A DNA stretch of 64,000 nt, taken from the NCBI RefSeq assembly GCF_003597675.1, contig NZ_CP030832.1, positions 136,148-200,147 on the forward strand. The letters run 5' to 3'. The translations under genes and the position numbers were made by a program. Each line of letters starts with the position of its first letter. Within the stretch, counting starts at the first letter, position 1. Positions 26,424 through 52,508 of the stretch are shown piece after piece. This DNA is from Neorhizobium sp. NCHU2750. Lineage in GTDB: Bacteria; Pseudomonadota; Alphaproteobacteria; Rhizobiales; Rhizobiaceae. The notes beneath the pieces were generated by a model that saw nothing but the letters and a program-made list of their open reading frames with translations, did not search any database and had not been told where the DNA came from.

Positions 26424-27722
26424 TCAGTTGTGTCGATCTTGCTTCTCCGGATCGGTGCGGGTCGCGCGGGGACCGATTGCGACAACCAACGCACTCGCGA
26501 TCGCCATAAATGCAAAGAGCAAAAACATCGCGGGCCCCCCAAGCGATGCAAGTGTAAGGCTGCCGATGACTGGACCCAGGAAGCTTCCTCCATTGCTGAT
26601 GGCATGCACTCCAAAATAGCCGCCCTTGTCGGCATCTGATGCCAGACTGTCCACCAGCACATACTCTGCACAAACGACCAACACCTCGGCAATCGACAGC
26701 AGAAACATTGACGTTATCAAAGCCGGCGAGGCAGTCGAACTGGCAAAGCCTATCTGGCTCGCGCACAGCATGACGCAGCCGGTCAGCAATGCGGTTAGAC
26801 CGCCTGCGCGCGCTATCATCCGGCTCAGGATGGGATTTGCCAGAAGCACGACGATGCCATTAATTGAGACGAGGATTGCATAAGTTTGTTGGCCGTTTGT
26901 TGTCGTCGATACGAGGTAAGGACCCAATGTCGCCGACCAGTGGCTGAAGACCGACAGAGCGAGCATCCCGCCGCAGATGAGGCAGAACAGGCGCCTGTCC
27001 CGCAAAGGTTTCCGGAGGGCGGCGACTGTTTGATGGAACCCGGCAAGGGTCTTGGGCGTCTGATCAAGCGTCGGCATCACGACGGGGGCGAGGAAAAGAA
27101 GCAGTGCTGCGAGGATTGTGCCTGCGATGAAAAAGCCAGTGGGCGTCGCGGGTCCTGCCACGACGCTGACGATGGGACCGATCGCCCATCCCAGGTTGGA
27201 TGCGGTGTAACGCCAGGAAAAGTGGGTGAACCGTTCCCGTTCGCTCGATGCATCGCTGATGATTGCCTTCGATATCGGATTAAACAATGCGACCGAAATC
27301 GCCGCGGTCGTATAGGCGAGACCGTACGCCAGGGCTTCGCCCGCAAAGCCCATGACCGTGATGCTCAATGACAGCATCCCCAGAACAAGCGCTAGAACCG
27401 CTTTGCGTCCGATCATGTCGGACCACGCACCGGCGAAGGGAGAAACCATTGCGCCAACAAGTGGGCCTATGCCGAGAAGCAGGCCGATCCCGACCAATCC
27501 CATACTAAAATCTCGATGCAGGATGATCGCGACAAAAGTCAGGCTCATTGCCCGCGCCACGGACACGAAGAACGAGCCAGAGACGATGAAGAGGACTGCC
27601 TGCGGAATGCTCAGCAAATCGTCCAAGGATCTGCGTAAATTCCTCAATTTGGAGAACCTCTGCTGGCTGTTAGGCTCGTCGGATTGCTCCGGAATTTTCC
27701 GGGAGTGCAAAGCCCAAGGCAT
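26424..27722 (-). CDS. MFS transporter, probable exporter
   Basis: About 432 aa with 12 hydrophobic helices starting at about residue 40 (SIPQAVLFIVSGSFFVSVAR). The MFS loop motif is present between helices 2 and 3 (GAWSDMIGRKAVLALVLGML). Later landmarks include GGYFGVHAISNGGSFLGPVI. It resembles the multidrug/sugar-efflux group (MdtH/SetA-like). The start is uncertain: 27722 leaves only about 20 bp to the divergent LuxR-type gene, so the true start may be a TTG nearer the first helix. Its position back-to-back with a LuxR-type regulator suggests export of a product made by the genes beyond the regulator. Confidence 0.82.
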   Translation of the reverse strand: MPWALHSRKIPEQSDEPNSQQRFSKLRNLRRSLDDLLSIPQAVLFIVSGSFFVSVARAMSLTFVAIILHRDFSMGLVGIGLLLGIGPLVGAMVSPFAGAWSDMIGRKAVLALVLGMLSLSITVMGFAGEALAYGLAYTTAAISVALFNPISKAIISDASSERERFTHFSWRYTASNLGWAIGPIVSVVAGPATPTGFFIAGTILAALLLFLAPVVMPTLDQTPKTLAGFHQTVAALRKPLRDRRLFCLICGGMLALSVFSHWSATLGPYLVSTTTNGQQTYAILVSINGIVVLLANPILSRMIARAGGLTALLTGCVMLCASQIGFASSTASPALITSMFLLSIAEVLVVCAEYVLVDSLASDADKGGYFGVHAISNGGSFLGPVIGSLTLASLGGPAMFLLFAFMAIASALVVAIGPRATRTDPEKQDRHN

Positions 27723-27742
27723 TGAGGGAAAGGAGAATTCGC

Positions 27743-28474
27743 ATGGTAGGAGACACACGGTTGATGAGGTCCCTGGCAAGGTTGCAGCCGGTCGTCCATT
27801 CCTCCGAATTCGAGCCTGCGCTGGGCGCTGTCACCGCGATCTACGGACTCAAACACGCAACCTGTCTTATTGTGCGAACAGGTTTCGGGTCGACAATGTA
27901 TCCCTTTTTCTGCACGACATATCCTCGGTGCTGGACGGACCTTTACCTCGCACGGTCCTATTTCGCTATCGACCCGGTGGTCGATATCATCCGGTGGGCA
28001 CGTCTGGCGGTGGACTGGTCTCGTCTCCAGAGGACTGGACCGGCTGTCGATCGATTTTTTGAGGAGGCGCGCGCCAACGATGTCGGCGCCAGTGGCTTGA
28101 CGGTGCCGGTCAGGGGCCCGAACGGCGAGCGCTCGCTGTTTTCCGTCACGTCTGATCTTCTGCCGGATCCCTGGGCAGAAATCAGTGAAGGACTGGGCCA
28201 TGACCTTCAGGTTCTTTCCCACTACATGCATGAAAAAATCCTGGCCGTCGCCGACATCGAAGCTGGCGCCACGGTGCGGCGTCTTTCGGCGCGTGAAAAA
28301 CAGTGTCTCGAAGCGCTTGCATCAGGCCGGCTGCAAAAACAGATTGCGGCTACGCTTGGCTTATCGGAAAGTGCCGTCAGGCTTTATCTACGGTCTGCCA
28401 GACGCAAACTCGGCGCAACAACGAGTTATCATGCCGTTGCCAAGGCAATCCTGTTCGAACTGATTTCGATCTAA
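27743..28474 (+). CDS. LuxR-family AHL-responsive regulator (solo)
   Basis: 243 aa. The N-terminal autoinducer-binding domain keeps the invariant positions: W and Y in CWTDLYLARSYFAIDPVVDI with the DP pair, W in AVDWSRLQ, and G in NDVGASGLTVPVRGPNGERS. The C-terminal GerE-type HTH reads LSAREKQCLEALASGRLQKQ and IAATLGLSESAVRLYLRSAR. The ATG at 27743 has AAGGAG 7 bp upstream. No luxI-type gene is adjacent; the only synthase in the window is traI, 35 kb away. It probably controls the exporter and the two genes downstream. It may answer the TraI signal or a host or plant compound (inference). Confidence 0.9.
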   Translation: MVGDTRLMRSLARLQPVVHSSEFEPALGAVTAIYGLKHATCLIVRTGFGSTMYPFFCTTYPRCWTDLYLARSYFAIDPVVDIIRWARLAVDWSRLQRTGPAVDRFFEEARANDVGASGLTVPVRGPNGERSLFSVTSDLLPDPWAEISEGLGHDLQVLSHYMHEKILAVADIEAGATVRRLSAREKQCLEALASGRLQKQIAATLGLSESAVRLYLRSARRKLGATTSYHAVAKAILFELISI

Positions 28475-28666
28475 GTGACTCGCCTTCCACGCCGCCCGTC
28501 CTCTATCCACGCTGGCGTCTACTCCCGTCAATCTGGCGAAATCGGCAGGTTGTTGCCGTCGCAAAGCCCATCCACACTCTGTGCTTGCTGACCGACCGGC
28601 ACTGACAGTTCGGCACGGGATCGTCGGCTTCCACCTGCGATCAGAGAGTCTGGATGGAGATACGTC

Positions 28667-29737
28667 ATGATCGATGCCGAGCTTATAAAGCGGTGGCGCA
28701 GCGCCCCTCGCCTCAATGACTTTGCTGCCTTCTTCGAACGGACTGCCGCCGGCCAAGGTGGTGCTCCAGACCTTGGCGAGCCGCATATCGATCTCGGCCT
28801 GCTCGACTTCGATCTCGAGGCCACCGTCTTTGCCGATACGCACAAGCGGCTCTGGGGTCCCTTCGATCGTCATTATTTTGCGAGCATACCCTATCGCTTG
28901 GAAGAGGAATGCCGATTGGGGTCGGCTCTCCTTCAAAAGGCGCTTCGGACATGGGCCCAGACCGCCCGGCCGGCCAGCATCTATACGCTCGGCACGGGAA
29001 CCGGCTGCCTTGCTCGAACGCTCGCACTGCTTGGGGCCGGTCGGATTGAAGCACTGTGCTGCAGCCCGACAGCCGCCAATCAAGAAGCATTCCTCGCGAA
29101 CCGCGCCAGCGATCACGCGCATTTTTATCATGGCCCGTTCTTCGAACTCGATGAGGGTCGATACGTCATCGACCCGGCGCTTCAACGTTTTCGCGGTGGG
29201 TTCGATATCCTGTTCGAGGACACCACCTTCCAGATGTATGATCATGACCGTGTCAGACAGATCGAATTCATCTATCCTCGGATCAAGCCGGGCGGTCTAT
29301 TGATCCAGGTTCAGAAACTGGCCCATCCCGACGCTGGCGAATACCAGGCACGCGAGAGACAGAAGGACGAATTGTTCAAGTCGCGATATTTTTCGCCGAC
29401 CCTGATTTCCGAAAAGAAGGAAGAAGTACTGGGCACCATGACCAATATGCAGGTGGACAAGGCCAGCACAGTCGATGCCCTCAATTCCTTCTTCCGCTAT
29501 TCCGTCGCGACATGGAACAGTGGCAATTTCTACACCATCGTGTCGTCTAATTCCGGCATCGCGATTGTCGAATTCCTGGCTCTCCTTCTGCAACCGGCGA
29601 TCCCGCCGGCATTCTGTCGAGAGACTTTGCCCGCGGTCTGGATCGATACGGACACCGACCCGATCAGGTCGATCTTGGCGTGGCGCCGGCCGAATTCCAT
29701 GCCTGGTATCGTGGCCGATCGGTTGCTGGCATCATGA
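28667..29737 (+). CDS. SAM-dependent methyltransferase-like protein
   Basis: 356 aa. A class I methyltransferase core is visible: SIYTLGTGTGCLARTLALLG (glycine-rich SAM loop, about 104-123), then RIEALCCSPTAANQEAFLAN, GFDILFEDTTFQMYDHDRVR and IEFIYPRIKPGGLLIQVQKL. The first 100 residues are unlike common methyltransferases. The region after 230 (RYFSPTLISEKKEEVLGTMT, YSVATWNSGNFYTIVSSNSG) is also unusual. It might be a small-molecule methyltransferase or an aminobutyrate-transferring relative; the fold alone does not decide. GGAG lies 7 bp before the ATG. The next gene starts 13 bp after its stop. Confidence 0.75.
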   Translation: MIDAELIKRWRSAPRLNDFAAFFERTAAGQGGAPDLGEPHIDLGLLDFDLEATVFADTHKRLWGPFDRHYFASIPYRLEEECRLGSALLQKALRTWAQTARPASIYTLGTGTGCLARTLALLGAGRIEALCCSPTAANQEAFLANRASDHAHFYHGPFFELDEGRYVIDPALQRFRGGFDILFEDTTFQMYDHDRVRQIEFIYPRIKPGGLLIQVQKLAHPDAGEYQARERQKDELFKSRYFSPTLISEKKEEVLGTMTNMQVDKASTVDALNSFFRYSVATWNSGNFYTIVSSNSGIAIVEFLALLLQPAIPPAFCRETLPAVWIDTDTDPIRSILAWRRPNSMPGIVADRLLAS

Positions 29738-29750
29738 TGCCGATGGCAAC

Positions 29751-31157
29751 ATGATCGAGACGCGGGCAAAGTACGCAACGCCTGGACAGGTTCGTGCGGC
29801 GCTGACATCGCTGATGCCCCCGCTTGCTGACTTTTGGTCGCGATCGCTTCGGGACTATGCTGCCTTTGCGTATCAGCCGGTCCCGTTTCGTCCAGCGAGT
29901 GCTGCACGATCATTTGCGAAGGACCGGCTGCGAGATGCCGTCACCCGCGCCGCTTTGCGCGCCGGACATGGCCATCAGGAAGCCCGATCTGCCGGTCGCG
30001 AATTGTATGAGTCACCTGTGGTGCAGACAGGCCCCCATTGTCTGATGCTCTATGAGCCAGATGCCTTCTACACCCATCTTTTCAGCCTGATGGGCCTGCA
30101 GGCGTATGGTCGGAACTGGCATATCGCTTATGCCGGCTCGACGATGTCGTTCAACGAGGCGGCAAAGAAAGGACCTGGTTGGCTGCGGGTCGGTGGCGAG
30201 CCCCTCAACGTCTTCGGATTGCCGCGCAGCCGCATGGACGGTAGCAGCATCTGCTGCAGCAACGGCCCCTTGCGGTTCTCCTTGACCAATGCCGCCGGCC
30301 AGATTGCGCCAAACGCTGCTGCCGCTCGCCTCGTGGGGCAACTGCCTTCGTCCTCATTTCAAACCGCCGCCGAGGCTATCAAAACCGCGAACGGCAAGTT
30401 GTGGAATGGCGGCATGTCGTCGATCGCGAAGCTGCTGCTGCTCGATGATTTCGACCTGGCCGACCTGATTGCAGATCATCTTGACCATTCCGGATCCTGG
30501 TTGACGACCGCGGTATTCTCGGGCGGTGGCGCCGCGAGTATTGTGCAGACAATCGATGGTCTCACCTCTGGACCTTGGCGCGGGTGGATACGGCGGTCCA
30601 CCGATTTCTTCTGGTTGGTGGGCCGAGACCGCATCCAGCCGTTGCGGCTGGAAGGTGGTTTTCTTCGAAGCCCGAATTCGACGAGTTTGGCCATAGAGTT
30701 CACGCCATCGAGCATTTCCGAGGCGCTGAGGAAGCATATGCTTCTACCGAACCTGTTCATGTCGTTTCTCGTCCTGTCGATTTTGCCGGGTATCCGCGCG
30801 CTTGGAGGCTGCCGCCAAACTGTTTACCTGCCGCTGATGCGCTACCTCGTCGCCATTGCTATCGCGCGATCGGGTGATCAGTCCCTGCTGGACGATTTGT
30901 GGAACGATGACCGGCCTTCTCTCTGGGGACATCGAGTCTTGCGGCCGACCAAAGGGGATCCTTTCCTCGAAATGGAGCGGGCGGGCGCAGTCGAACACCT
31001 GCTTGCGCTATATGCTGATATGCCGCTGATTGAAGCGAGTGGCGACCTGGTCGCATTTACCGGCGATCCGATCTGGGAGGGCACGTATCGCTCGTTATTT
31101 TCCGGTCTCACGGGACCGGCGTGTTCGCAATGGGCATGGTCGGGTTTTGCGCGATGA
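29751..31157 (+). CDS. unassigned 468-aa protein in LuxR-linked locus
   Basis: I do not recognise a family with confidence. Notable blocks are VVQTGPHCLMLYEPDAFYTH (about 83-102), WHIAYAGSTMSFNEAAKKGP and GWLRVGGEPLNVFGLPRSRM. A helical region follows (GMSSIAKLLLLDDFDLADLI), then EALRKHMLLPNLFMSFLVLS. The TGPH/TGQ-like start followed by STM and GPGW faintly recalls the substrate-binding core of BshC-type amino-acid ligases, but this is weak. No signal peptide. It follows the methyltransferase-like gene by 13 bp, so the two are co-transcribed and probably act in one pathway. The ATG lacks a strong ribosome site, which fits translational coupling. Confidence 0.75.
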   Translation: MIETRAKYATPGQVRAALTSLMPPLADFWSRSLRDYAAFAYQPVPFRPASAARSFAKDRLRDAVTRAALRAGHGHQEARSAGRELYESPVVQTGPHCLMLYEPDAFYTHLFSLMGLQAYGRNWHIAYAGSTMSFNEAAKKGPGWLRVGGEPLNVFGLPRSRMDGSSICCSNGPLRFSLTNAAGQIAPNAAAARLVGQLPSSSFQTAAEAIKTANGKLWNGGMSSIAKLLLLDDFDLADLIADHLDHSGSWLTTAVFSGGGAASIVQTIDGLTSGPWRGWIRRSTDFFWLVGRDRIQPLRLEGGFLRSPNSTSLAIEFTPSSISEALRKHMLLPNLFMSFLVLSILPGIRALGGCRQTVYLPLMRYLVAIAIARSGDQSLLDDLWNDDRPSLWGHRVLRPTKGDPFLEMERAGAVEHLLALYADMPLIEASGDLVAFTGDPIWEGTYRSLFSGLTGPACSQWAWSGFAR

Positions 31158-31616
31158 AAGAAAGGGGACAATGAGAGGCTGCAGTCAGTTTTCGGAAGAT
31201 TGCGAAAGGCCAATCCCCCAGACCTGTCTGAGCGGAACGTTTTGGCCGGGGGAAGTCGGTCCCGCGTCCCGCTTTGCGGCCGCTATGCTGACGCTCCTGC
31301 GGCGTCCCTCTTTCCGTCAAAAACGTGACGAGAATTCCCGGTTTCCCGGTGCTGCCGGTCGGCGCCCGGCGCGATGCTGAAACCTCCGATGTTCTTCATT
31401 GTCTTGCTCGAATCCGGCCTGGCGCCGGTTGATCCGAGCGTGGGCGTCGAACCTTTCCTTTATCGTGCAGCTTTCATATTGGGCCAAAGTTGAAGAGCTC
31501 GGAGCCGGCTCCTGGTGACCCGCATACCCTTGCTGAAGCCAAGGCCAACTCCATCTGCGACATGGAGCGCCCAATCGTTCTAGCGGCGACTTAATCTCCT
31601 TCTTCGGCGAATAATT
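31158..31616. other. intergenic region; one doubtful short frame
   Basis: About 460 bp. A 69-codon frame at 31171-31380 has a good ribosome site (AAAGGGGACA) and starts MRGCSQFSEDCERPIPQTC, but the remainder looks like random GC-rich translation. No other gene, repeat or clear terminator is seen. GC content falls sharply beyond about 31590. Confidence 0.5.
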
Positions 31617-32149: not shown

Positions 32150-33060
32150 TTAGTACGAAGCAGCGTGTATCAAAGCAGGAAGCTGGCCGGCTTGGCGTGC
32201 GGGCGAGAACAATAACTCCCAGCCTCCTGCATTTACCAAGCCGCCATACGGGACGCCGCCCTGTGTAGCTGAACCAACAGCAGCCCGTAGCTTTGTCAGT
32301 TCACTCTGCGTCCCGATGTTCACCAGATCGGTGGATACGCCACGGCCTAAATTTCCGAGCGCATATTCCGCCATATGCTCCGTCGCGTTCGGCGCAACCC
32401 AGATATCCGCTCCGCTGGTAGCCAAGGTGAACGAACGTGGTATAGCTGTGCCCTCATAAACACCCTGTGTAGCCGTAACCGCATCCCAGACGGTTCCCGT
32501 ACCTTCTGCGGCAACGGCAGCCGATCTTCCCAGCAGCCCGGCTGCGAATTCTGCTCCTGAACCGAGGAGAGCTCCTCCTGCACCCGATAGGGCAACTTCT
32601 CCCCAATCTGTGCAGCTTACGTTTCCACCATTCTTATACATTTGGTAAGCAAAGTCGCCTCCCGCACCAAGCGCACCTCCAATTAATGCGCCAGCGAGAC
32701 CGAATTGGCCGGTAGAATCTGCCTCGTTGATGGTGTTCCCATTGACATAGGCACAGAGATTGCCGCTCTGATCCGCTGCTTCCCCGGCAGGATCTCTGGA
32801 AAGCCACCGCCCCGCGACAGGATCATAGGCTCTGAACTGCGTCAGATAGAGACCACCGTCGCTGTTATAGATTATGCCCGCATAGCCATAATCGGTGGCC
32901 GGCGCCGTCGATTGCAATGCATTTCCGTATGGATCAAAATCATGGTCGGCGCCGAGGTGGTGCCGGCAAACGCACGACGAACAGAACCGATCTGATCACG
33001 GCCATAGTAGTATGGCCGGATGGACGTGCCGGGTCGCTCCACAGGTGGTAGAGCGCAGCG
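32150..33060 (-). pseudogene. orphan Rhs C-terminal tip with polymorphic toxin domain, frameshifted
   Basis: The open part (32150-32917, 255 aa) contains the end of the Rhs core: YGYAGIIYNSDGGLYLTQFR and AYDPVAGRWLSRDPAGEAAD, then LCAYVNGNTINEADSTGQFG. A variable C-terminal domain follows (WVAPNATEHMAEYALGNLGR, VSTDLVNIGTQSELTKLRAA). Upstream, GTSIRPYYYGRDQIGSVRRA and FAGTTSAPT lie in another frame and continue as DFDPYGNALQS when one T is restored near 32945. The rest of the Rhs protein is absent. This is a displaced Rhs cassette. The toxin family is not recognised; the C-terminal domain could still be supplied by recombination into a full Rhs gene. Confidence 0.75.
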
Positions 33061-34174: not shown

Positions 34175-34437
34175 TGCCTGATTGCCAGCGCGTTGTTCGC
34201 GTCTCTTAGGAGCCGCGTAGCCGGTGTGTTGCGTGTGCGTTGAGGCTTTGAACGCGATGTTTCGAAGTGCGTTTCTAGCCGGATTTGGGGAATTTGGAGG
34301 CCGAGGGAACTCGATATTTATTCTGATTTTTGACCTGCGGAGGCGGATGAACCTGCCGCGTGGGAACGGATACCTACGCGGTGAAAATGGGAGCTCGCCG
34401 CGTTGATTTTTACGACCAAGAAGAAGGGAACATTGGA

Positions 34438-36027
34438 ATGCTATTCAAGCATATTCGAACGCATGTGTTCATGCTGGCATTGGCGCTGGGTGTGGGCTGT
34501 ATGTCCGCATCTGTTGCTGGGGCTGAAGAATTGCGCATCGGCACACAGCTCAAGCTCATGACGTTGGATCCGCATTATGCCGATCTGAACGAAAACACCT
34601 CACTGCTCTCGCATATCTACGAGCGTCTGGTGAACCAGGACGAGAACCTCAACCCGCAGCCGGGACTGGCAGTCACCTGGAAAAGACTGTCTCCAAAGGT
34701 CTGGGAGTTCAAGCTGCGCCATGGCGTCAAATTCCATGACGGATCGGCTTTCACCGCGCAGGACGTCATCTATTCTGTTGAACGCGTTCGCGATTTTCTG
34801 AAACCGCCGAGCGGCGGGTTCCAGTCCTATACCAAGGCCATCACCTCGATCACCGCGCCTGATCCCATGACGGTCTTGATTGAGACCCGTGACGAGGCCC
34901 CTACCCTGCCGATCCAGATGACCGCCATTCTGATCATGCCGCACAAGGCCGGTGGCGGCTTTGCCACCACCGACGAGGTCAATACCGGGGTCCCTCCCGT
35001 CGGCACCGGACCCTACAAGTTCAGGACTTGGCAATCCGGGGAATTGCTCGCCCTCGACGCGAATGACGAATACTGGGGCGGCGCACCGGCCTGGTCGAGC
35101 GTGGTGTTTCGGGTCATCGAAAGCCCGGCCGCGCGTGTCGCAGCGCTCTCCACAGGCGACGTCGATCTCGCCGACTATATCCCTGCCCGGGATGTCGCAA
35201 ATCTGGAGGCGCACGGCATAAAAGTCGAGAGCGCAGCCGCAGCCCGTTCGAACTTCCTGCAGTTCGACATGTCACGCGATCAACTGCCCGGCGTGACTGA
35301 CGCGGCAGGTAAGCCGATGGCGAACCCGTTCAAGGATGCTCGCGTGCGCGCGGCTTTGGCCCTTGCGACCGACCGGCCGTTCCTGGCCGAAAAGATCCTT
35401 GGCGGCTACGGAACGGCGGCAAGCCAGATGTTTCCGCCCGGCATGGCCGGCACCTCCGCCAATCTTGCCGTCACACCACCGGACTATGACCGTGCCAAGG
35501 CCCTGCTTGCCGAAGCCGGATTGTCCAATGGGTTCTCGGTCGTGCTTGCCGGCCCGGCAGGGCGTTACCCAGGCGATGCCGAAACGCTGCAGTCGATTGC
35601 GCAGAACTGGGCGCGCATCGGGGTGAAGGTTCAGCCGATTGTCTCTCCGTTTTCCGTGTTCATGACCAAAAGATCGGCCGGAGAATATCCGGTCTGGTAT
35701 GGCGGCTGCTCCGGGGAAGCCGTCAGCCTTTGCCTCGATGTCGTTTTGACTTCCGCTGATGTCGAGAAGGGCACCGGTTCCCTGAACTATGGCGGCTACA
35801 GCAATCCCGTCTACGACGACATGCTCGCCAAGGCAGAAGCACTGGAGGACGGACCAGCCCGCAGTGCGGCGCTGGCACGCGCGACCGAGTTTGTGATGGC
35901 GGATCACCCAATCATCCCGCTCTATCACTTCCACCTCATTGCCGGCCACGGCAGGAAGGTCGGCTCCTACACGGTCCACCCCCGGGGATGGACTTTGGCC
36001 ATGCGGGCAGTCCCGGCGGCTAATTGA
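34438..36027 (+). CDS. ABC transporter substrate-binding protein (SBP_bac_5, peptide/opine type)
   Basis: 529 aa with a Sec signal peptide (FMLALALGVGCMSASVAGAE). The extracytoplasmic solute-binding family 5 landmarks follow: LRIGTQLKLMTLDPHYADLN, HIYERLVNQDENLNPQPGLA, KLRHGVKFHDGSAFTAQDVI and GTGPYKFRTWQSGELLALDA. It captures an oligopeptide, opine or similar conjugate in the periplasm. The start at 34438 was chosen because it opens directly into the signal peptide and has GAAGGGAA upstream. It is the first gene of a five-gene operon (binding protein, two permeases, double ATPase, CapA-like). Confidence 0.93.
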   Translation: MLFKHIRTHVFMLALALGVGCMSASVAGAEELRIGTQLKLMTLDPHYADLNENTSLLSHIYERLVNQDENLNPQPGLAVTWKRLSPKVWEFKLRHGVKFHDGSAFTAQDVIYSVERVRDFLKPPSGGFQSYTKAITSITAPDPMTVLIETRDEAPTLPIQMTAILIMPHKAGGGFATTDEVNTGVPPVGTGPYKFRTWQSGELLALDANDEYWGGAPAWSSVVFRVIESPAARVAALSTGDVDLADYIPARDVANLEAHGIKVESAAAARSNFLQFDMSRDQLPGVTDAAGKPMANPFKDARVRAALALATDRPFLAEKILGGYGTAASQMFPPGMAGTSANLAVTPPDYDRAKALLAEAGLSNGFSVVLAGPAGRYPGDAETLQSIAQNWARIGVKVQPIVSPFSVFMTKRSAGEYPVWYGGCSGEAVSLCLDVVLTSADVEKGTGSLNYGGYSNPVYDDMLAKAEALEDGPARSAALARATEFVMADHPIIPLYHFHLIAGHGRKVGSYTVHPRGWTLAMRAVPAAN

Positions 36028-36038
36028 GGAGATCCGTC

Positions 36039-37010
36039 ATGACAGCAACTATCTTCGGAAGGCTTTCACAAGCCTTCCTGCTTCTTCTCGCCATGTCGAT
36101 CATCGGGTTTGTCGGCATTCACAGCATCGGCAATCCTGTCTTCAACATCGTCAATGTCGAGACCGCCACGCCCCAGGATATTCGCGGGGCAACGATCGCG
36201 CTCGGGCTGGATCAGCCCTTGTGGCGCCAATATCTGCTGTTCCTCGGCAATGTCGTGAGCGGCAACTTCGGCACCTCCTACATCTATCATCTGCCAGCTT
36301 TCCGGCTTGTGATGAGCAAGCTTCCGGCGACATTCGAGCTTGCCGCGGTCGCCATGCTGGTCGCGGCCCCCCTGGGTATCCTGTTCGGCCTTTTGGCCGG
36401 CCGGCGCAAAGGGACGGTTTCCGATCGGGCCGTGCTCACGTCCAGCGTCTTGGCACTCAGTGTGCCGTCCTTCTGGCTGAGCATGCTGCTGATCATGTTT
36501 GGAGCCATGATGACAGGATGGTTTCCGTCCGGGGGGCGCGGGGACGTGGTGTCCGTCCTTGGCGCGGATTGGAGCGTCCTTACTCTTTCCGGCCTGCACC
36601 ATCTCGTCCTGCCGGCACTGGCGCTCGCCATCCCGAACATTGCCCTGATCGCCCGGTTGACACGATCAGGCACGATCGAGGTGGAAGCCCAGGATTTTAC
36701 GCGCTTCTGCCAGGCGAAAGGCCTTTCCCCGCGACGGATCCTGTTTCGCCATACGCTGCGCAATATCAGCGTGCCGATCGTCACCATCATCGGCATGCAG
36801 TTCGGCGGCATGCTGGCCTTTGCCGTGGTCGTCGAGTCGATCTTCAATTGGCCGGGCATCGGCAAGCTGCTGATCGATTCCATCCAACTGCTCGATCGAC
36901 CCGTGGTCATGGCCACCCTCACCTTTGTGGCAATCGCTTTCGTCGGCCTCAACGCCCTCGTCGACATTTTCTACGCCATGATTGATCCGCGAACCCGCCG
37001 ATCCGCCTGA
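36039..37010 (+). CDS. ABC transporter permease (DppB/OppB-like)
   Basis: 323 aa with about six membrane helices. The N-terminal FGRLSQAFLLLLAMSIIGFV and the GLDQPLWRQYLLFLGNVVSG segment are typical of DppB. The BPD_transp_1 EAA loop is visible as ARLTRSGTIEVEAQDFTRFC, then AKGLSPRRILFRHTLRN. GAGGAG lies 7 bp before the ATG, 11 bp after the binding-protein stop. It forms the transmembrane pore with the next gene's product. Confidence 0.93.
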   Translation: MTATIFGRLSQAFLLLLAMSIIGFVGIHSIGNPVFNIVNVETATPQDIRGATIALGLDQPLWRQYLLFLGNVVSGNFGTSYIYHLPAFRLVMSKLPATFELAAVAMLVAAPLGILFGLLAGRRKGTVSDRAVLTSSVLALSVPSFWLSMLLIMFGAMMTGWFPSGGRGDVVSVLGADWSVLTLSGLHHLVLPALALAIPNIALIARLTRSGTIEVEAQDFTRFCQAKGLSPRRILFRHTLRNISVPIVTIIGMQFGGMLAFAVVVESIFNWPGIGKLLIDSIQLLDRPVVMATLTFVAIAFVGLNALVDIFYAMIDPRTRRSA

Positions 37011-37021
37011 AAGGAGCACCG

Positions 37022-37891
37022 ATGAACACCAAAACCATCCGGGCGCTCTGGAAATGGCCCACCGCCCATCGACCGACTGCTTCGATACTCGTGCTGGCCG
37101 CGTATGTGCTGCTGGCGATCGCTGCCTCCGTCATCGCGCCGCAGGACCCTTATGATCCGTTAGAGATTTTTGCGTGGGAATCCTCCTCGCCGCCCGGCAC
37201 GGCAGGTGGCGGCGGGTACATCTACCTGCTGGGTACCGATGGTCTCGGGCGTGATATACTCAGCACCGTGTTTTACGGCCTGCGGATCAGCCTGTTCGTC
37301 GCAGCCACCAGTACCGTCCTTGCTGCCATGATCGGCATGAGCCTTGGCGTCATTGCAGCTTATCTCGGACGTTGGGCAGATGCCCTGATCATGCGCATTG
37401 TGGATCTGCAGCTCAGTCTGCCGACCATGCTGGTCGCGCTGATCGCGATCGTGACGCTGGGCCCGGGTATCGATCGCATCATCCTGGCGCTCGTCATCGT
37501 GCAATGGGCGGCTTACGCGCGGGTGACGCGCGGCGTCGCCATGGGCGAAGCGAAAAAGGCCTATCTTGATGCGGCACGGCTGTTGCGCCTGCCGCCATCG
37601 CGTATCGTCTTCCGTCACCTGTTGCCCAACAGTATTGCGCCGGCCATCACCCTCATCCCGATCGAGCTCGGCCATGCAGTGGCGCTTGAGGCCACCCTGT
37701 CGTTCCTCGGATTGGGTGTCCCGATCGACAAGCCCTCGCTCGGCTCTGCGGTGGCAAACGGCTTTCAATACCTGATGACCGGCCAGTATTGGATCAGTCT
37801 GTTCCCGGGGCTCGCACTCTTCGGTCTCATCGCCAGCATCAACTTCGTCGGCGAGGAGTTCCGTCGCCGCTATGACCCGAGGAGCCACTGA
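37022..37891 (+). CDS. ABC transporter permease (DppC/OppC-like)
   Basis: 289 aa. An N-terminal OppC domain (PTASILVLAAYVLLAIAASV) is followed by YLLGTDGLGRDILSTVFYGL, the classic DppC start. The EAA loop is ARVTRGVAMGEAKKAYLDAA, then RLLRLPPSRIVFRHLLPNSI. An AAAGGAGCACCG ribosome site sits 11 bp after the preceding gene. Ends within 2 bp of the chosen start of the ATPase gene. Confidence 0.93.
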   Translation: MNTKTIRALWKWPTAHRPTASILVLAAYVLLAIAASVIAPQDPYDPLEIFAWESSSPPGTAGGGGYIYLLGTDGLGRDILSTVFYGLRISLFVAATSTVLAAMIGMSLGVIAAYLGRWADALIMRIVDLQLSLPTMLVALIAIVTLGPGIDRIILALVIVQWAAYARVTRGVAMGEAKKAYLDAARLLRLPPSRIVFRHLLPNSIAPAITLIPIELGHAVALEATLSFLGLGVPIDKPSLGSAVANGFQYLMTGQYWISLFPGLALFGLIASINFVGEEFRRRYDPRSH

Positions 37892-37892
37892 C

Positions 37893-39542
37893 ATGGACCC
37901 GTGCCATCACAAAGCCCCGCTCCTGGCGGTCGATAACCTGACCCTGAAACATCATGGACCGTCGGGCTCGAAAACCATCCTGCGCGAGGTGAGCGTCGAG
38001 CTGCGGCGCGGCGAGATCCTCGGTCTGATCGGCGAGTCCGGTGCTGGAAAGTCGAGCCTCGGTTATACCATTCTCGGCCTGCTTGCGCCGGGCATCGAAC
38101 AAACGGCCGGATCGATCCGGCTGGAAGGCTCTCCACTTGAAGCTTTCAGTCTCAAGCAAAGAGCCGAAATTCGAGGGCGCCGGATCGCGGCGATCTTCCA
38201 GGATCATGGCGCTTCGCTTGATCCTCTCATGACGGTGGGGGCGCAGATCGCAGAAACCGTCCGCGCTGTGGGCGAGAATGTCACGAAGAGACAGGCCCGC
38301 CTACGCGCCATCGAGCTTCTGGGCCGTGTCGGCATACCCGAACCGGCAGCGCGATATGGACACCATCCGCATCAGTTCTCCGGCGGCCAGCGCCAGCGGA
38401 TCGTGATCGCCATCGCGCTTGCCGGCAACCCACAAGTGATCGTGGCTGACGAACCGACCTCGGCGCTCGATGCAACGGTTCAGAAACAGGTTCTGGCGCT
38501 GCTGCGCTCGCTGACGGCCGATACGGGCGTGTCGATCATCCTCGTCACCCACGATATGGGTGTCATCGCTGACGTCACCGACCGGGTGGTCGTCTTGCGG
38601 CACGGGCGAGTGGTCGAGCAGGGGGAAACCACCGCGATCCTTGATGCGCCGCGCGACGCCTATACCAAGTCGCTTCTGTCAGCTGTCCCATGCTTGCGGC
38701 GGACTGTGGCGGGAAGCGCTCTGTCGTCTGAGGACGTCGTTTCTCTCAAAGGAGAGCCGGTTCTGCGCGTTGACAATGTCAGCAAGAGCTTTGCCGGTTC
38801 CGGGCTGCCATGGCTTGCTGCCCGCCAGCAGAAGCGGGCGCTACACGACGTCTCGATCCTGCTTCCATCGGGATCCGTGACCGGTATCGTCGGTGAAAGC
38901 GGAAGCGGAAAATCGACGCTCGGCCGCATTGTCGCCGGTCTGGAGACCGCAAGTTCCGGTACGCTCGACCTTGAGGGGCGGCGGTTTCAGATCGAGAGGC
39001 CGGGTTGGCGCAACGGTCTCCTGGGCGAGGTCCAGATGATCTTCCAGGATCCATCGGCGTCACTCAATCCACGCATGGTGATCGCAGACACACTGCAGGA
39101 AGCGGTACATTATGGCGCCGGCGCTTCCGGAGGTCATGTTTCCGCTGTCGGATCCATGATGGATCGGATGGGCCTCGCCCGCAGCCTGCTGACGCATTTC
39201 CCGCATCAGCTATCCGGCGGCCAGAAGCAGCGCGTCTGCATCGCCCGGGCGCTGCTTGCCCGGCCTTCGATCATCGTCGCCGACGAGCCTACATCGGCGC
39301 TCGACGTGTCGGTGCAGGCGGAAATCGTCACGCTGCTTCAGCAAACCATTGCCGAGCAACATGTTTCAATGCTGTTCATCTCGCATGATCTCGCCCTGGT
39401 GCAGGCCCTTTGTCACTCGATCTATGTGTTGAAGGACGGCGTGATCGAGGATCGTGGCGATCCCGATTTTATCTTTTCCCGTTCGCAAAACCCCTACACG
39501 CGCAGCCTGATCGACGCCCGCTCCGCCCGCTTCACGCATTGA
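37893..39542 (+). CDS. fused double ABC transporter ATP-binding protein (DppD-DppF type)
   Basis: 549 aa with two complete nucleotide-binding domains. Domain 1: Walker [21 protein letters not shown], signature [20 protein letters not shown], Walker [21 protein letters not shown]. Domain 2: Walker [21 protein letters not shown], signature [20 protein letters not shown], Walker [21 protein letters not shown]. One protein therefore replaces the usual DppD and DppF pair. The start at 37893 has GAGGAG upstream within the end of the permease gene; an ATG 21 bp earlier is possible. Confidence 0.93.
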
Positions 39543-39627
39543 GAAAGGCGTGGCGCTTGTGTCGGCGCCTCGCGGCAATATCCCTTTAGAATTCGCCAGC
39601 GCTCGGCGCGGCGCCAGGAAAATCGTT

Positions 39628-40905
39628 ATGACCCAGTACTTTACCATTGCCGTCACCGGCCAGTCCCTCATCAAACACGATATTCGCACCGTCGAGACAA
39701 AGGGTTTTCTCGGTGTGCAAGACATTATCGGCCAGTCGGACTTCGCCTTCACCAACTTCGAGACCACGATCCTCGGACGTCATGGTGGCTGGCCGCTCAA
39801 AGGCTCGTTCTTCGGGGCAAGCCGGCCGGTCGTTCTCGACACATTGCGATCGATCGGTTTCGAAGGCCTGACGCTTTCCAACAATCATGCCTTCGATCTC
39901 GGTCCCTCCGGTGTTCTTTCGACGATGGAAGAAGTCGAAGCACGCGGTTTTGTTTACGCCGGCGCCGGCCGGAACCGGAAAGAAGCAAGCCTTCCCGGCT
40001 ATGGCTCGTTTGCCGGTCGGGATATCGCGTTGGTGGCGATGGACGGTGGGCCCGGGCCCGACTTCATGTACGCGGCAGATGCCGAAGTGGACCGACCGGA
40101 GCGCCCGGGTATCAATCGGCTGAAGCTGAGCAAGGTCCTTGATGTCGACGCTACAGCCTTCAAGCAGCTGAAATCCATCCGCGATCGGCTCGGCTATACC
40201 GACATGGATCTCGGCAACGACGCCCAGCCGGACGATACCCCCACTATCGATCCCGAGACCGAGATTGCCATGGCGCGGGCCCTATTCCGGCGTTCGGATC
40301 GGTTTGGCCGGAATGTCAAAATCGATGCGTCTGATCTCAAGCGCAATCTCTCGGCGATCACGGTTGCTGCGGAAAATGGTGACATGGTCATCGCCTATCT
40401 GCACCATCATCATTGGGCGTCCGACTGGTATCAGGTATCCGATTGGGTCGGCAGCGTCGCAAAACAATGCATCGACGCCGGCGCTGCCATGTTCGTCAGC
40501 CACGGCGCTCCGGTCCTGCAGCCGGTCGAGATCTATCGTGGGCGTCCGATCTTCTACAGCCTGGGAAATTTCATCTTTCATATCCGCTCGGAAGGTTCGA
40601 AGTGGACCGCCCGCGAAATCTGGGAAAGCGTCGTCGGACTTTGCTCTTTCACCCCCGATGGTAGGCTTGCGCGCATGGCCTTTTATCCGGTCGTCATTGG
40701 CGGCCATGACGCGCTGCAGACTGACGCACTCGATAAACGCCTTGCCCCCGAACTGGCGCATGGCGAAGATGCCGATCGCATCCTGTCGCGCTTCCAGAAA
40801 CAGTCCGCCTCATTCGGCACGCAGATCAGGATCTCAGGTGGCGTCGGAATTTATGAGACCGAAGCGATATTGCTGGAAGGCATGCAGGGAGAGGATGCTT
40901 CTTGA
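39628..40905 (+). CDS. CapA-family metallohydrolase (poly-gamma-glutamate synthesis-like)
   Basis: 425 aa, no signal peptide or membrane anchor. CapA/PgsA blocks: FAFTNFETTILGRHGGWPLK, FEGLTLSNNHAFDLGPSGVL (the SNNHAFD metal motif), DMVIAYLHHHHWASDWYQVS and AMFVSHGAPVLQPVEIYRGR, then FYSLGNFIFHIRS. CapA relatives without a membrane anchor are metallophosphatase-fold proteins of unclear chemistry. Placed last in the importer operon, it probably acts in the cytoplasm on the imported compound, for example cleaving a gamma-glutamyl or phosphoryl group (inference). The ATG at 39628 has AGGAA upstream; a GTG at 39550 is possible. Confidence 0.85.
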   Translation: MTQYFTIAVTGQSLIKHDIRTVETKGFLGVQDIIGQSDFAFTNFETTILGRHGGWPLKGSFFGASRPVVLDTLRSIGFEGLTLSNNHAFDLGPSGVLSTMEEVEARGFVYAGAGRNRKEASLPGYGSFAGRDIALVAMDGGPGPDFMYAADAEVDRPERPGINRLKLSKVLDVDATAFKQLKSIRDRLGYTDMDLGNDAQPDDTPTIDPETEIAMARALFRRSDRFGRNVKIDASDLKRNLSAITVAAENGDMVIAYLHHHHWASDWYQVSDWVGSVAKQCIDAGAAMFVSHGAPVLQPVEIYRGRPIFYSLGNFIFHIRSEGSKWTAREIWESVVGLCSFTPDGRLARMAFYPVVIGGHDALQTDALDKRLAPELAHGEDADRILSRFQKQSASFGTQIRISGGVGIYETEAILLEGMQGEDAS

Positions 40906-40932: not shown

Positions 40933-42180
40933 TCACAGGACGAGCGCTCGCTGCAGATCCTCATGCTCAAAGGCACTGGACATCCTGTTGATCTCCGCAG
41001 ATCTCGCACCAACGATCTTCGCGACCTCGCGCCATGTTGAGGTCGCATCCGCAACTTGTCTGATGATCTGCCGGGCCTGCGACAAGGTCAGGGCGAAGAA
41101 CTCTGCCGCCGCCTCCAGCAGGTCGAGCGAACATGTGCCTTCGTCCAGATCGATATTCGTCGTCAGCACGCGCGCCTTGATGTCGGTCGGAACCGGGTTG
41201 AGATCATAAGCCGGAGACAGTGACCATCCGGCTTTGCCAAGCCAGAGAAATCCATGGTTTCGAAGGTGATCGTCGACATTTGAGATCAGCACGTTGAACA
41301 CGACACGACGGTAGAGAGCGTGGGCATCGCTTTTGCCCTGCGCTCCATGCTCGGCCAATGCGTCGACCATTTCCGGATAGCTGCCGCGTTCGCCATCCCT
41401 CGCCCCCATCATAGCCATCGCTGACAGAAACGGAATACGGACCACTTCGCGACGGTCGAAGCGTCGGGACAACATGACCTTCTTGCCAGCGATATCGACC
41501 AACTGATGGAGGGGTGTGGTGATACCGCAGCGATCGGCCAGTCGCAGTGCGATCTCCTCCCAGGTTTCGATACTATACTCGTCCGTTTCCCTGGGAAATT
41601 TTGCGATCGAGAGATGGCCATGCTGATCGATCACCGAGGCCTTCGGTCGCGCACCGCCAAGCGATGAGCCGGGCGCGAAGATGAGCTGCAGGTCCTCGTC
41701 CGTTTCTTCGTCACGCAGGATGCGCTCGGTGATTTGCAACAGACGCCCAAGGTCGATGAGGGCGGGCACGCCGCTCTGGATCGGTGCCTGAAATTGCTCC
41801 TCACCAATCCACCGAAAGCGAAGCGCTCCCAGGCGGGTTTCGTCGGCCACTCCGAGCAGATAGTCGCTTTCCGCGAGCGTTCTCACAGCGCGAGCCTCGC
41901 GTTCAGCCATGCGACGCTCAGCCCGCTGCATGAGGCGCCGGCCCCAAGTGTCGGGCGCGGAATCTCCGATGGAACCAAATGTAGCAAGGCCGACTGGTGG
42001 GGCAAATCCCCCTCGGGTCAAAGCCAGAGCCGGCTCCAGTGAAAACCGGTCCGGATCTTCAAGCCAGCTCTGATCGTACTCGAACATGATCGTCTCGTTA
42101 CCGCGTACACGATTGCTGCGCGCCAGACCGATCGGCCGCGTGCGGCCGTCGAGGTCGAGATGGACTTCGAAATCAGCCAT
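40933..42180 (-). CDS. hipA: HipA-family serine/threonine kinase toxin
   Basis: 415 aa. The N-terminal couple_hipA domain ends in GARPKASVIDQHGHLSIAKF (nucleotide-binding loop and Lys). The kinase core has VVFNVLISNVDDHLRNHGFL (catalytic D and N) and WSLSPAYDLNPVPTD (metal-binding D). In E. coli, HipA phosphorylates glutamyl-tRNA synthetase and induces dormancy; related kinases have other tRNA-synthetase targets. It overlaps hipB by 8 bp and forms a toxin-antitoxin operon that could stabilise the plasmid. Confidence 0.93.
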   Translation of the reverse strand: MADFEVHLDLDGRTRPIGLARSNRVRGNETIMFEYDQSWLEDPDRFSLEPALALTRGGFAPPVGLATFGSIGDSAPDTWGRRLMQRAERRMAEREARAVRTLAESDYLLGVADETRLGALRFRWIGEEQFQAPIQSGVPALIDLGRLLQITERILRDEETDEDLQLIFAPGSSLGGARPKASVIDQHGHLSIAKFPRETDEYSIETWEEIALRLADRCGITTPLHQLVDIAGKKVMLSRRFDRREVVRIPFLSAMAMMGARDGERGSYPEMVDALAEHGAQGKSDAHALYRRVVFNVLISNVDDHLRNHGFLWLGKAGWSLSPAYDLNPVPTDIKARVLTTNIDLDEGTCSLDLLEAAAEFFALTLSQARQIIRQVADATSTWREVAKIVGARSAEINRMSSAFEHEDLQRALVL

Positions 42181-43365: not shown

Positions 43366-45342
43366 TCATCCGCCCGTCCCATTCGTCGATTTTATACCTT
43401 CCTCGGTCATCGACATGTCTTGAGGACCAGCCCTCCTGTGAGATCTGCTTTGCTCGACGCAGGCTCTCATATTCGCGCGGCGAAACCAGATGGCGCGACC
43501 GCACCTGAGCGGGGGATTGCCGGCGGTGAAGACGATCTGCTCGTCGGTGCGCATCCGCAGTACCTCATGGGGCTGGATCAGCGGCCGCGCCGCCATCTGC
43601 TTGGAACGTGTTCGCGAGGATCCTCGTGATTGGAAACTGCGGCTGACCTGGTCGACCTCGACCGTTGTCATGCCGCAGCGCCGAGAAATGTATTCGGCGG
43701 TTTCGGGATCGTTGATGGCTGCAAAGGAGATCCAGCTGGCGCTTTCGAACCATTTGCTCGACGCGTCGCGGCCCCCATAGGTCTCCCGTAGCTGACCGAT
43801 CGACTGGTAGATCATCGTCAGTGTGATGCCGTATTTGCGCCCGGCATCGCGCGCTGTCTCGAGAACGCGCATATAGCCAAGCCTTGCCGCTTCATCGAGG
43901 AGGAAGAGCGCATGTCCGCTGATCTCTCCATTTCGATTGTAAATGGCATTCAGGAACGAACCGATAATCACACGGGCAAGACCGGAATGCGTCTCGAGCG
44001 TCTTGAGATCGATGTTTATGAACACGTCGACCTGCCCTGAGGCGATGTCGTCGGTCGAAAAGGATCTGCCCGACACCAGACCTGCATAATTCGGATAGGA
44101 CAACCAGTGGGTCTCCTTGATCGCATTGGCATAGACACCGGAGAACGTCTCCGGCGTCATGTTGACGAACGCGGCGACGTTCTCCTTCACGAAGTCCGAC
44201 AGCGAGCTGTCGTAGATTTCCTGCAGGCGCTTGCGCAGCTGTGGCTCGGGCTCTGCCAGATTAGCCCGCACCTGGCGCAGTGTCTGATCCGTCTCGTCCG
44301 TCAGACCTGACAGGCAGACATCGGCAATCATAGCGGTCACCAGCTGCAGCCCGGAGGCGCGGAAGAAGTCATCGCGAACGCCCAAGGCGCGACCACTGTC
44401 GCTGACGATCCAGGACGCGACGGCTGCAATATCCTCTTCCTTCGTGCCGCCAAATTTGCCGATCCAGTCGAGCACGTTGAAGCCTGTCTGCGGTCGGTGC
44501 GGATCAAGGATGCGGATGCGGCGGCCGGCATTCTCGCGGTGTCTCGACACCTGCGGCGCAACTTCATTAGAGGGGTCGAGGAGAACAAGCGTACCGCCCC
44601 ATTTGAGGGCGGTCGGGATCGTCACCGACGTCGTCTTGAAACCGCCTGATCCAGCAAACACGATCCCGTGCGACGAGCCGAAGGATCCGTCGAAACACAG
44701 AAGTGGGACTTTACCACCCTTGCCCCAGCTTGTCCGGTCATTGGCACTGAACGGCCGGGCCGTTGTCTCATCCTCATCAACGCGGTACCGCTCTCCGACG
44801 ACAATACCGCCGGTTTCGGGGAAGAGCTTTTCCGCATCGCCAAGTCTCATCCAATCGGCGTCTCCATGAAGAGCGCGTTTGCCGACAATCCGTTTGGGCG
44901 CTGGCCGTGCAAAAGCCCCGTTGCCTTTCATGGCAACCCTCGATGCAAAACAGCCGGTCATCAGTGCTCCTGCCGCTCCGACCATCGTGGCGGGATCAAG
45001 ATAGGAGAGGCTCGACATATTCGACGTCACGTCGGTCGAGATTGCTGCCAGACGCATCGTTTCGCGCAGGACACCGACAAGGATGACAAGAAGGCAACCA
45101 AACCCGACCCCCGATCCGACGATCCTGATGTTGATCGACCCGGCTCGCGCAAAGATTGCGATGACACCGATTGCCGCGGCAACAAGATACGGCGATGCGA
45201 TACCGACGCGCCCGAATAAAAGCTTCGTAGCCTCTGTCTCGCCGAAGCGTGCAAGCCATTGCTCTACGCCCGTCAGACCGATGAATGCCGCCATCATCAG
45301 GGTTTGAGGCACAAGGAACGCGGCGAGCCTACCCATCGTCAT
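43366..45342 (-). CDS. traG: TraG, conjugative coupling protein (VirD4 family)
   Basis: 658 aa. N-terminal membrane segments ([40 protein letters not shown] and further) anchor a cytoplasmic hexameric ATPase. The Walker A variant is [20 protein letters not shown] and the Walker B is [20 protein letters not shown], as in Ti-plasmid TraG. It brings the TraA-bound DNA strand to the Trb channel. The start overlaps the 3' end of traD by 14 bp. It is the last gene of traC-traD-traG, transcribed away from oriT. Confidence 0.96.
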
Positions 45343-46035: not shown

Positions 46036-46103
46036 GGCGCCCTGGCGGGGCCTCCGCGCTCTTCGACCCGGTGTTTTCAACTGAAAGAAGGAGCGTCGCT
46101 CTC

Positions 46104-52139: not shown

Positions 52140-52508
52140 TTGTCAGCTCGTAGCGCTACGTCAACGGAACCAATAGGCGGCGTTGACCCGCGTTTGCCGG
52201 AAGTGGAGCCTCTCTTGAACGTTACAGACAAGGCGACTCTCGAGGCGCTCGTGATCGAAAAGATCCGAGCCCACCGTCGTCAGATCGAGTCCGACCAGCT
52301 GGTCTACGACGAATGGGTTCGAGCAAGTGAAGATACTACAGTTTCCGCAATGGTGCTGCAGGCCATGCAGGACGCGTATCTCGCCCGCCAGGATAAGGCC
52401 GACCGGCTCCAGGAAGAGCTCTCAGAGCTCATCGATACCCTTGGGTATGTTCCAGCCGTTCCGGAAGACGAAAATGAGCAGGCGGTCAGCACCAACCCCT
52501 ATCCTTAA
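52140..52508 (+). CDS. traM: TraM, TraR antiactivator
   Basis: 122 aa predicted; the conserved part matches TraM: LEALVIEKIRAHRRQIESDQ, LVYDEWVRASEDTTVSAMVL, DAYLARQDKADRLQEELSEL and DTLGYVPAVP. TraM binds TraR and blocks activation until enough AHL and TraR accumulate. The family is usually about 102 aa, so the TTG at 52140 may be too early; in-frame TTG (52194) and GTG (52203) codons would give shorter proteins. Its 3' end overlaps the 3' end of the convergent traR gene by 23 bp. Confidence 0.88.
   Translation: MSARSATSTEPIGGVDPRLPEVEPLLNVTDKATLEALVIEKIRAHRRQIESDQLVYDEWVRASEDTTVSAMVLQAMQDAYLARQDKADRLQEELSELIDTLGYVPAVPEDENEQAVSTNPYP

Follow-up and report, generated by a model that had tools for sequence, protein, structure and literature searches.

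A putative LuxR-switched gene pair encoding a methyltransferase-like protein and a BshC-fold protein in Neorhizobium sp. NCHU2750

Positions are given for the window, the 64,000-nt stretch of Neorhizobium sp. NCHU2750 that was analysed (NZ_CP030832.1, 136,148-200,147, forward strand). The four ORFs that the initial annotation had placed at 26424..31157 were all found at those places, as was the 13-bp gap between the last two (29737 to 29751). With an operator, they are:

26424..27779, minus strand: MFS exporter gene, divergent from luxR (PF07690 MFS_1, E 1.8e-34)
27722..28474, plus strand: LuxR-family regulator (Autoind_bind PF03472, E 2.5e-27; GerE HTH PF00196, E 3.2e-12)
28530..28551: putative 22-bp palindromic, lux-box-like operator in front of the MT gene, AATCTGGCGAAATCGGCAGGTT, recognised by conservation
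28667..29737, plus strand: MT, a SAM-dependent methyltransferase-like protein of 356 aa (Methyltransf_24, E 2.3e-4; remote sequence kin of CmoA)
29751..31157, plus strand: 468-aa protein with a BshC / class I synthetase-like fold by fold comparison, a proposed amide-forming ligase

The MFS and LuxR ORFs were both called from TTG codons and overlap by 58 bp. Aligned LuxR homologues begin at ATG 27743, which is therefore the likelier start, and the true start of the MFS gene is probably downstream of its called TTG. Searches with the locus ORFs returned 242, 329 and 360 homologues at E <= 0.001, and their pN/pS against the nearest named relative was 0.23-0.40; thus, these ORFs are more than chance reading frames. 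A scan of 28400-31500 for sigma-70 promoters found 0, with 1.1 expected.

Both the autoinducer-binding domain and the GerE HTH of the predicted LuxR-type regulator were matched. Moreover, the six pocket residues named in the available part of PMC4338825 (W, Y, D, P, W and G) are invariant in 10/10 aligned LuxR proteins. The suggested control of the enzyme genes by LuxR is backed by the conserved operator, which was present in 27/30 of the upstream regions scanned (22/25 among those not used as seeds), with a conservation of 1.39 bits per column compared with 0.17 and 0.26 in the flanks. Its exact sequence occurs at a single place in the 6.35 Mb genome, before the enzyme genes. A palindromic operator at target genes is expected of a LuxR receptor and, judged by its conservation, this element is a candidate for such a site. 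Two observations count against the explanation that we favour below: the operator is kept at L047 and L056-L058, where the fetched stretch holds no LuxR gene, and the scan of upstream regions found it missing at L059, L060 and L106. It was also absent from the loci scanned in the other, AraC lineage (L006, L061, L070). Locus L046 was left out of the scan and the tree owing to an interrupted MT frame.

An AHL synthase had been reported as lacking, which is correct inside 26424..31157 and incorrect for both the window and the genome. Two further quorum-sensing genes lie in the window:

52486-53190, minus strand: TraR-like LuxR (TraR model, 132 bits, below the cut-off of 250)
62992-63618, minus strand: TraI (NCBIfam TraI, 314 bits, cut-off 292)

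The genome holds three LuxI-family genes, namely this TraI on the locus contig and two others. No LuxI gene is next door to luxR; the TraI of the contig is ~34.5 kb away, beside trbB. The locus shares the LuxR family with the TraI/TraR systems of rhizobial plasmids, and TraI and the TraR-like LuxR sit on the same contig, but the locus LuxR is separate, with its own putative operator before other genes. On another contig of this genome, C4, a TraR-like LuxR and an MT are located by trb genes; there is no luxI in the ~370 bp between trbB and the contig end, and the genome search for LuxI returned none on C4. According to the accessible text of PMC10134790, pluR is located with ppyS, PluR senses photopyrones, and LuxR-solo subgroups 3, 5 and 6 are Rhizobiaceae-specific with conserved flanks. 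Here, as in the PluR/PpyS systems, a LuxR gene adjoins genes proposed for a small molecule with no LuxI beside it, whereas the enzymes differ.

The predicted SAM-type methyltransferase-like protein has a single family match, Methyltransf_24, whose 22.4 bits fall below the cut-off of 26.3. CmoA is linked to the MT by both fold and sequence and is the sole sequence-level relative found; the MT is ~100 residues longer. Arg199 of CmoA holds the carboxyl of Cx-SAM (PMC4482062, in the part available). The aligned column, its position counted by hand, is K or R in 16/16 LuxR-lineage rows (K in the window), and reads T, E, E, K, K, K, S, T, N and R in the other 10 rows of the MT alignment (six non-K/R); unlike in CmoA, Arg199 is therefore not conserved across the family. 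The best Foldseek match of the MT is CysG (E 5e-10), and its fold is that of a methyltransferase. CysG and BelI are described as carboxyl O-methyltransferases of beta-lactone inhibitor pathways (available portions of PMC11408123 and PMC11427300), which employ amide-bond synthetase and ATP-grasp enzymes (PMC11427300, same portion). However, the His-His-Asp metal motif of CysG and BelI (PMC11408123, same portion) is not among the conserved MT columns by sequence alignment. In that alignment, which is not a residue-level structural one, the motif-IV region is TTFQMY in most rows and contains no HH pair. Enzymes for a nicotianamine-synthase-type metallophore were also considered; such folds are absent among the best 50 MT fold matches listed, which does not in itself exclude them.

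For the 468-aa ORF, described initially as being of no recognised family, Pfam and NCBIfam likewise gave no match up to E 10. The faint BshC-like motif noticed in it agrees with fold comparison and disagrees with sequence comparison: the nearest solved fold is BshC (PDB 4wbd), whereas there is no significant sequence link, hhalign giving probabilities of 0.2% and 0.1% and Pfam PF10079 no match up to E 10. BshC is the cysteine-adding enzyme of bacillithiol synthesis, which adds cysteine to glucosaminyl malate. Since sequence methods fail to join the two, which counts against the explanation favoured below, a ligase activity is argued from the fold, and we propose that the 468-aa protein may be an amide-forming ligase. 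Within its family Q92, G94, P95 and H96 are invariant, as are H109, D232, D233, D235 and H394. Neither this genome nor any of 120 genomes searched across the phylum yielded a BshC; plasmids gave three BshC genes, too few for a fuller BshC alignment. Two papers were listed in the literature for BshC-like or MshC-like enzymes, and the title of neither concerns such a family.

The two enzymes had been called coupled, and at 29/35 loci the fetched stretch with MT does contain the 468-aa gene. Occurrence of these genes without each other or without LuxR had been named as grounds for rejection, and this was seen in part. MT lacks the 468-aa gene in its stretch at 6/35 loci (L059, L066-L069, L006), which speaks against our favoured explanation, and a distant 468-aa homologue occurs without MT nearby at five loci (L093-L097). 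The LuxR gene is in the stretch at 16/22 LuxR-lineage loci compared with 0/47 random ones, leaving six without. At L098, a distant 468-aa homologue adjoins an aminotransferase. Matches were found on plasmids of Rhizobium, Sinorhizobium, Agrobacterium, Ensifer and Shinella. Linkage to conjugation genes is not a general rule, being non-significant in the LuxR lineage (7/22 vs 7/47 random, p 0.097); in the AraC lineage it reaches 11/13 (p 5.5e-6), among loci that are close kin and not independent. L073-L075 do not enter these counts, the three being a fragment at a contig edge, a distant relative and a match of 20 bits. An identity of the pair with RcgA/RcgR was set aside by description only: in the available text of PMC9601222, RcgR has a predicted alpha/beta-hydrolase domain, RcgA a possible import role, and the word 'methyltransferase' occurs 0 times. 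Judged by titles and the opening lines of abstracts, none of the papers listed in a literature search, with most subscription papers outside it, describes the cassette.

The exporter accompanies the other genes at some loci only, and the four-gene unit first suggested is not supported as such. MFS is present in 5/29 LuxR-lineage tree rows, at three separate places of the tree; homologous divergent MFS genes are found at L009, L047, L049 and L050, and fragments at L051. Most MFS-less relatives carry a GNAT acetyltransferase gene. Of the 29 rows, 5 have MFS, 18 GNAT and 6 neither, and none has both (chance of zero overlap 0.004, calculated by hand and ignoring kinship). L106 carries both. Near the window locus itself the analysis turned up no GNAT gene, which counts against our favoured explanation. 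Two GNAT genes were scanned as possible disguised LuxI proteins; their above-cut-off matches were acetyltransferase families, with no Autoind_synth. Downstream of the locus, an ABC importer and a CapA-family gene occupy 34360-40905:

34360..36027, plus strand: ABC importer solute-binding protein, family 5, a probable accessory (PF00496, E 1.1e-78)
36024..37010, plus strand: ABC importer permease 1 (PF00528, E 3.2e-39)
37022..37891, plus strand: ABC importer permease 2 (PF00528, E 4.6e-28)
37872..39542, plus strand: ABC importer double ATPase (PF00005, E 2e-60; oligo_HPY, E 1.9e-7)
39550..40905, plus strand: CapA / PGA_cap family protein, a probable accessory (PF09587, E 6e-47)

A family-5 solute-binding gene is near MT in 7/22 LuxR-lineage stretches and 0/47 random ones. 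For CapA, in stretches of up to ~16 kb, the counts are 1/22 in the LuxR lineage, 5/13 in the AraC lineage and 0/47 random. The operator scan found no such site at the importer and CapA genes, which may be an independent neighbour; this too weighs against the explanation that follows.

From the first interpretation we retain LuxR control, the coupled enzymes and the BshC-like fold. We hypothesise, with a probability of roughly 0.6, that this plasmid locus encodes a pathway to a small molecule, probably derived from an amino acid, with LuxR as its dedicated switch. The intact pocket suggests that LuxR would bind an N-acyl-homoserine-lactone-like ligand, then the conserved operator at 28530-28551, and so turn on the MT-468 operon. 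By its fold, MT may resemble CysG/BelI to some degree in methylating a small acid or amine, or it may use SAM in another way. The BshC-fold enzyme would then activate an amino acid or join it to that compound, yielding an amide. The product could leave via the divergent MFS pump; in pump-less relatives, the pattern of GNAT genes suggests that GNAT perhaps protects against or finishes the product. Lastly, from their linkage, the peptide- or amino-acid-type ABC importer and the CapA-like protein might re-import or process it.

The product may instead be toxic and antibiotic-like, with pump or acetyltransferase as self-protection. This is possible, though on the doubtful side: it would suit the mutual exclusion of MFS and GNAT, the scattered MFS genes and the beta-lactone inhibitor pathways of CysG and BelI (PMC11408123, PMC11427300, portions available), but the neighbouring importer argues for re-use, L106 has both genes together and GNAT may be biosynthetic. 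It is rather unlikely that the two enzymes themselves produce what their LuxR senses, a non-LuxI quorum signal that would feed back positively via the operator and might be linked to plasmid transfer. The presence of LuxR in 16/22 stretches, the one exact operator before the enzymes (as autoinduction would predict), the precedent of pluR with ppyS and photopyrones (accessible text of PMC10134790) and the arrangement on C4 all favour this. However, three LuxI-family genes, one of them on the locus contig, could supply the ligand, the scanned AraC-lineage loci dispense with the operator and the pocket residues are all those of ordinary AHL receptors. In its fullest form, which we consider unlikely, MT and the BshC-fold protein would be a LuxI-independent pheromone synthase, and a plasmid-made, exported and re-imported methylated aminoacyl-amide, sensed by LuxR (AraC in the other lineage), would serve alongside TraI/TraR as a second signal, of density or of donor/recipient state, on rhizobial conjugative plasmids, including those of Rhizobium etli.

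A metal-scavenging or opine-like compound, exported and then re-imported, would account for the occurrence of a pump together with importer genes of family 5 or family 3 around these loci, and the importer of R. etli CIAT 652 is annotated as nopaline type. The gene make-up is also reminiscent of staphylopine loci. Nevertheless, 15/22 LuxR-lineage stretches contain no family-5 importer, no metal-responsive regulator was noticed and LuxR control would be unusual for metal scavenging, and we think this reading quite improbable. Far less probable is that MT is a CmoA-like tRNA- or cofactor-modifying enzyme and the pair unrelated to small molecules. CmoA is the only relative by sequence that was found, but the Arg199 column is T, E, S or N in 6/10 rows outside the LuxR lineage, no CmoB-like gene was noticed next to MT, and the genes are patchy, largely plasmid-borne and near pumps, importers and dedicated regulators.

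If the ligase reading of the 468-aa protein is true, it would represent a new kind of amide-making enzyme outside ribosomal, NRPS and ATP-grasp chemistry. The proposed LuxR-switched pathway can be tested at once through its conserved operator, which offers a reporter with which to seek the ligand of LuxR and a means of switching the pathway on to search for its product. Moreover, the plasmid records matched are mostly typed as conjugative (109/121 in one search, 120/143 in another), and therefore the molecule may be of importance to communities in roots and nodules. On Rhizobium etli plasmids, the genes adjoin traA to traG.

All four ORFs proposed in the initial annotation, namely a divergent MFS exporter, a LuxR regulator, a methyltransferase-like protein (MT) and a 468-aa protein, are present. 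The assignment of the 468-aa protein to no recognised family also held, as no Pfam or NCBIfam family matched it up to E 10; for MT, Pfam gave nothing beyond a sub-threshold Methyltransf_24 match. Three protein searches returned 242, 329 and 360 homologues at E <= 0.001, and the sources named among the best 120 of each are rhizobial genera, e.g. Sinorhizobium, Rhizobium, Agrobacterium, Shinella, Mesorhizobium and Phyllobacterium. With Neorhizobium sp. JUb45 as the reference, pN/pS is 0.23 for MT, 0.26 for LuxR and 0.40 for the MFS gene; the value of 0.32 for the 468-aa gene derives from a 336-aa piece only, because the JUb45 copy is split. Elsewhere in the window, the start of a 255-aa ORF (32150-32917) gives the impression, from its sequence, of resembling the final part of a repeat protein of the Rhs type; Pfam gives no match to this ORF at E 0.01.

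MT matches were found in 37/394 genomes and 18/109 genera of the window's family, and the distribution is therefore patchy. A profile of the 468-aa protein matched 14/397 genomes in an order-level sample, every one within that same family, and 2/337 in a class-level sample, these being the window's own genome and one distant match. Within the own genome the sole other match to the 468-aa protein is insignificant (E 0.135), and a second MT (42% identity) sits on contig C4 together with MFS and AraC genes. In the genus to which the window belongs, C-terminal remnants of the 468-aa gene lie close to a GNAT gene at L099 (G140:C146) and L100 (G047:C78), where the cassette appears to have decayed.

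To describe gene neighbourhoods we used 35 stretches, around 34 further MT matches and the own-genome paralogue (L006), leaving out the weak or fragmentary matches L073-L075. These split into 22 of a LuxR lineage (L039-L060) and 13 others (L061-L072, L006), the AraC lineage, which are separated in the MT tree with support of 100/100. The LuxR lineage has the order LuxR, MT, 468-aa gene and then often GNAT, or alternatively a divergent MFS gene. In the AraC lineage MFS and AraC are each divergent from MT in 12/13 stretches, and the 468-aa gene is behind MFS or elsewhere within the stretch in 8/13. Overall, the 468-aa gene occurs within the fetched stretch at 29/35 MT loci and was not found there at L059, L066-L069 and L006. 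A LuxR-bearing Shinella plasmid (L106) groups with the AraC side, although this position is unsure because its branch is very long; it carries virB genes, then LuxR, MT, MFS, a transposase, the 468-aa gene, GNAT, an HTH gene, pepT, CapA and a family-5 importer.

A palindrome search of the 390-bp regions around MT starts suggested a common 22-mer. Using a matrix built from five seed sites, and setting the acceptance limit at 6.9, the score of the window's runner-up site, a site was found in 27 of 30 upstream regions (22/25 of the non-seed regions), and none above the limit upstream at L059, L060 and L106. The window site (28530-28551) scores 27.9, and the weakest accepted sites (L049-L051) 8.4 to 14. 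Information content is 1.39 bits per column, compared with 0.17 and 0.26 in the 60-bp flanks (26 non-redundant regions), and the consensus occurs in the whole 6.35-Mb genome at one exact place and one with three mismatches. All six ligand-pocket residues of LuxR, as identified in PMC4338825, are kept in 10/10 aligned proteins. The sequence patterns of the 22-mer argue strongly for a dedicated, conserved operator as the regulatory part of the locus, and we infer that the window LuxR would bind it. At L047 and L056-L058 the box is kept, yet tblastn of the fetched stretch finds no LuxR; therefore the regulator there, if any, lies and may act elsewhere, or a recent loss may explain its absence.

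The locus is probably a small-molecule pathway. At L074 (3631-9679) a distant MT relative lies between an AMP-forming (AMP-binding) ligase gene and an acyl-CoA dehydrogenase gene, and an MFS gene adjoins this run; together with a RidA-like gene they form a compact group that looks like a small biosynthetic cluster. At L098 (8568-11491), outside the window's family and order, the gene for a 544-aa protein distantly related to the 468-aa one overlaps a PLP aminotransferase gene. Five loci (L093-L097) carry a distant 468-aa homologue without MT; a GNAT match adjoins it in the four inspected, and that at L093, the only one tested, is confirmed by Pfam. Among 29 LuxR-lineage tree rows MFS occurs in 5, at three separate places of the MT tree, and GNAT in 18, with no co-occurrence (chance 0.004, computed by hand and ignoring kinship). 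However, L106, outside this lineage, carries both and is a counter-example to their exclusion.

Neighbouring genes were compared with a background of 47 stretches of 16 kb, drawn at random from 25 of the contigs that carry the loci. Importer genes of the SBP5 type are enriched near LuxR-lineage MT (7/22 against 0/47), where CapA is not (1/22 against 0/47, not significant). Near AraC-lineage MT both SBP3 (6/13 against 1/47) and CapA (5/13 against 0/47) are enriched, with p-values that overstate the enrichment because the loci are close relatives. At 11/13 AraC-lineage loci the fetched stretch includes conjugation genes, against 7/47 random stretches; for the LuxR lineage alone the figure is 7/22 against 7/47 (p 0.097, not significant). 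The window itself holds a conjugation region at 43366-63618:

43366-45342, minus strand, coupling protein
46071-49403, relaxase
52486-53190, minus strand, TraR-like LuxR
62992-63618, minus strand, TraI
between the relaxase and 63618, TraF, TraB, TrbI, TrbF, TrbL-type, TrbE and TrbB

At L006 (G000:C4:357500-377000) the AraC-lineage MT and MFS genes adjoin a TraR-like LuxR and trbI, and the roughly 370 bp that separate trbB from the end of the contig contain no luxI. In R. etli, the plasmid-borne AraC-lineage locus is flanked on one side by traA/C/D/G and on the other by an HTH gene, CapA, a family-3 importer (annotated for nopaline in one record) and a LysR gene. In the plasmid collection, DNA matches occur in 121/72,556 records, 109 of them typed conjugative, and 468-aa homologues in 143 records, 120 of them conjugative, both being raw counts rather than enrichments. 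Lastly, a HipA-like gene (PF07804; window 40933-42180, minus strand) lies between CapA and the coupling-protein gene.
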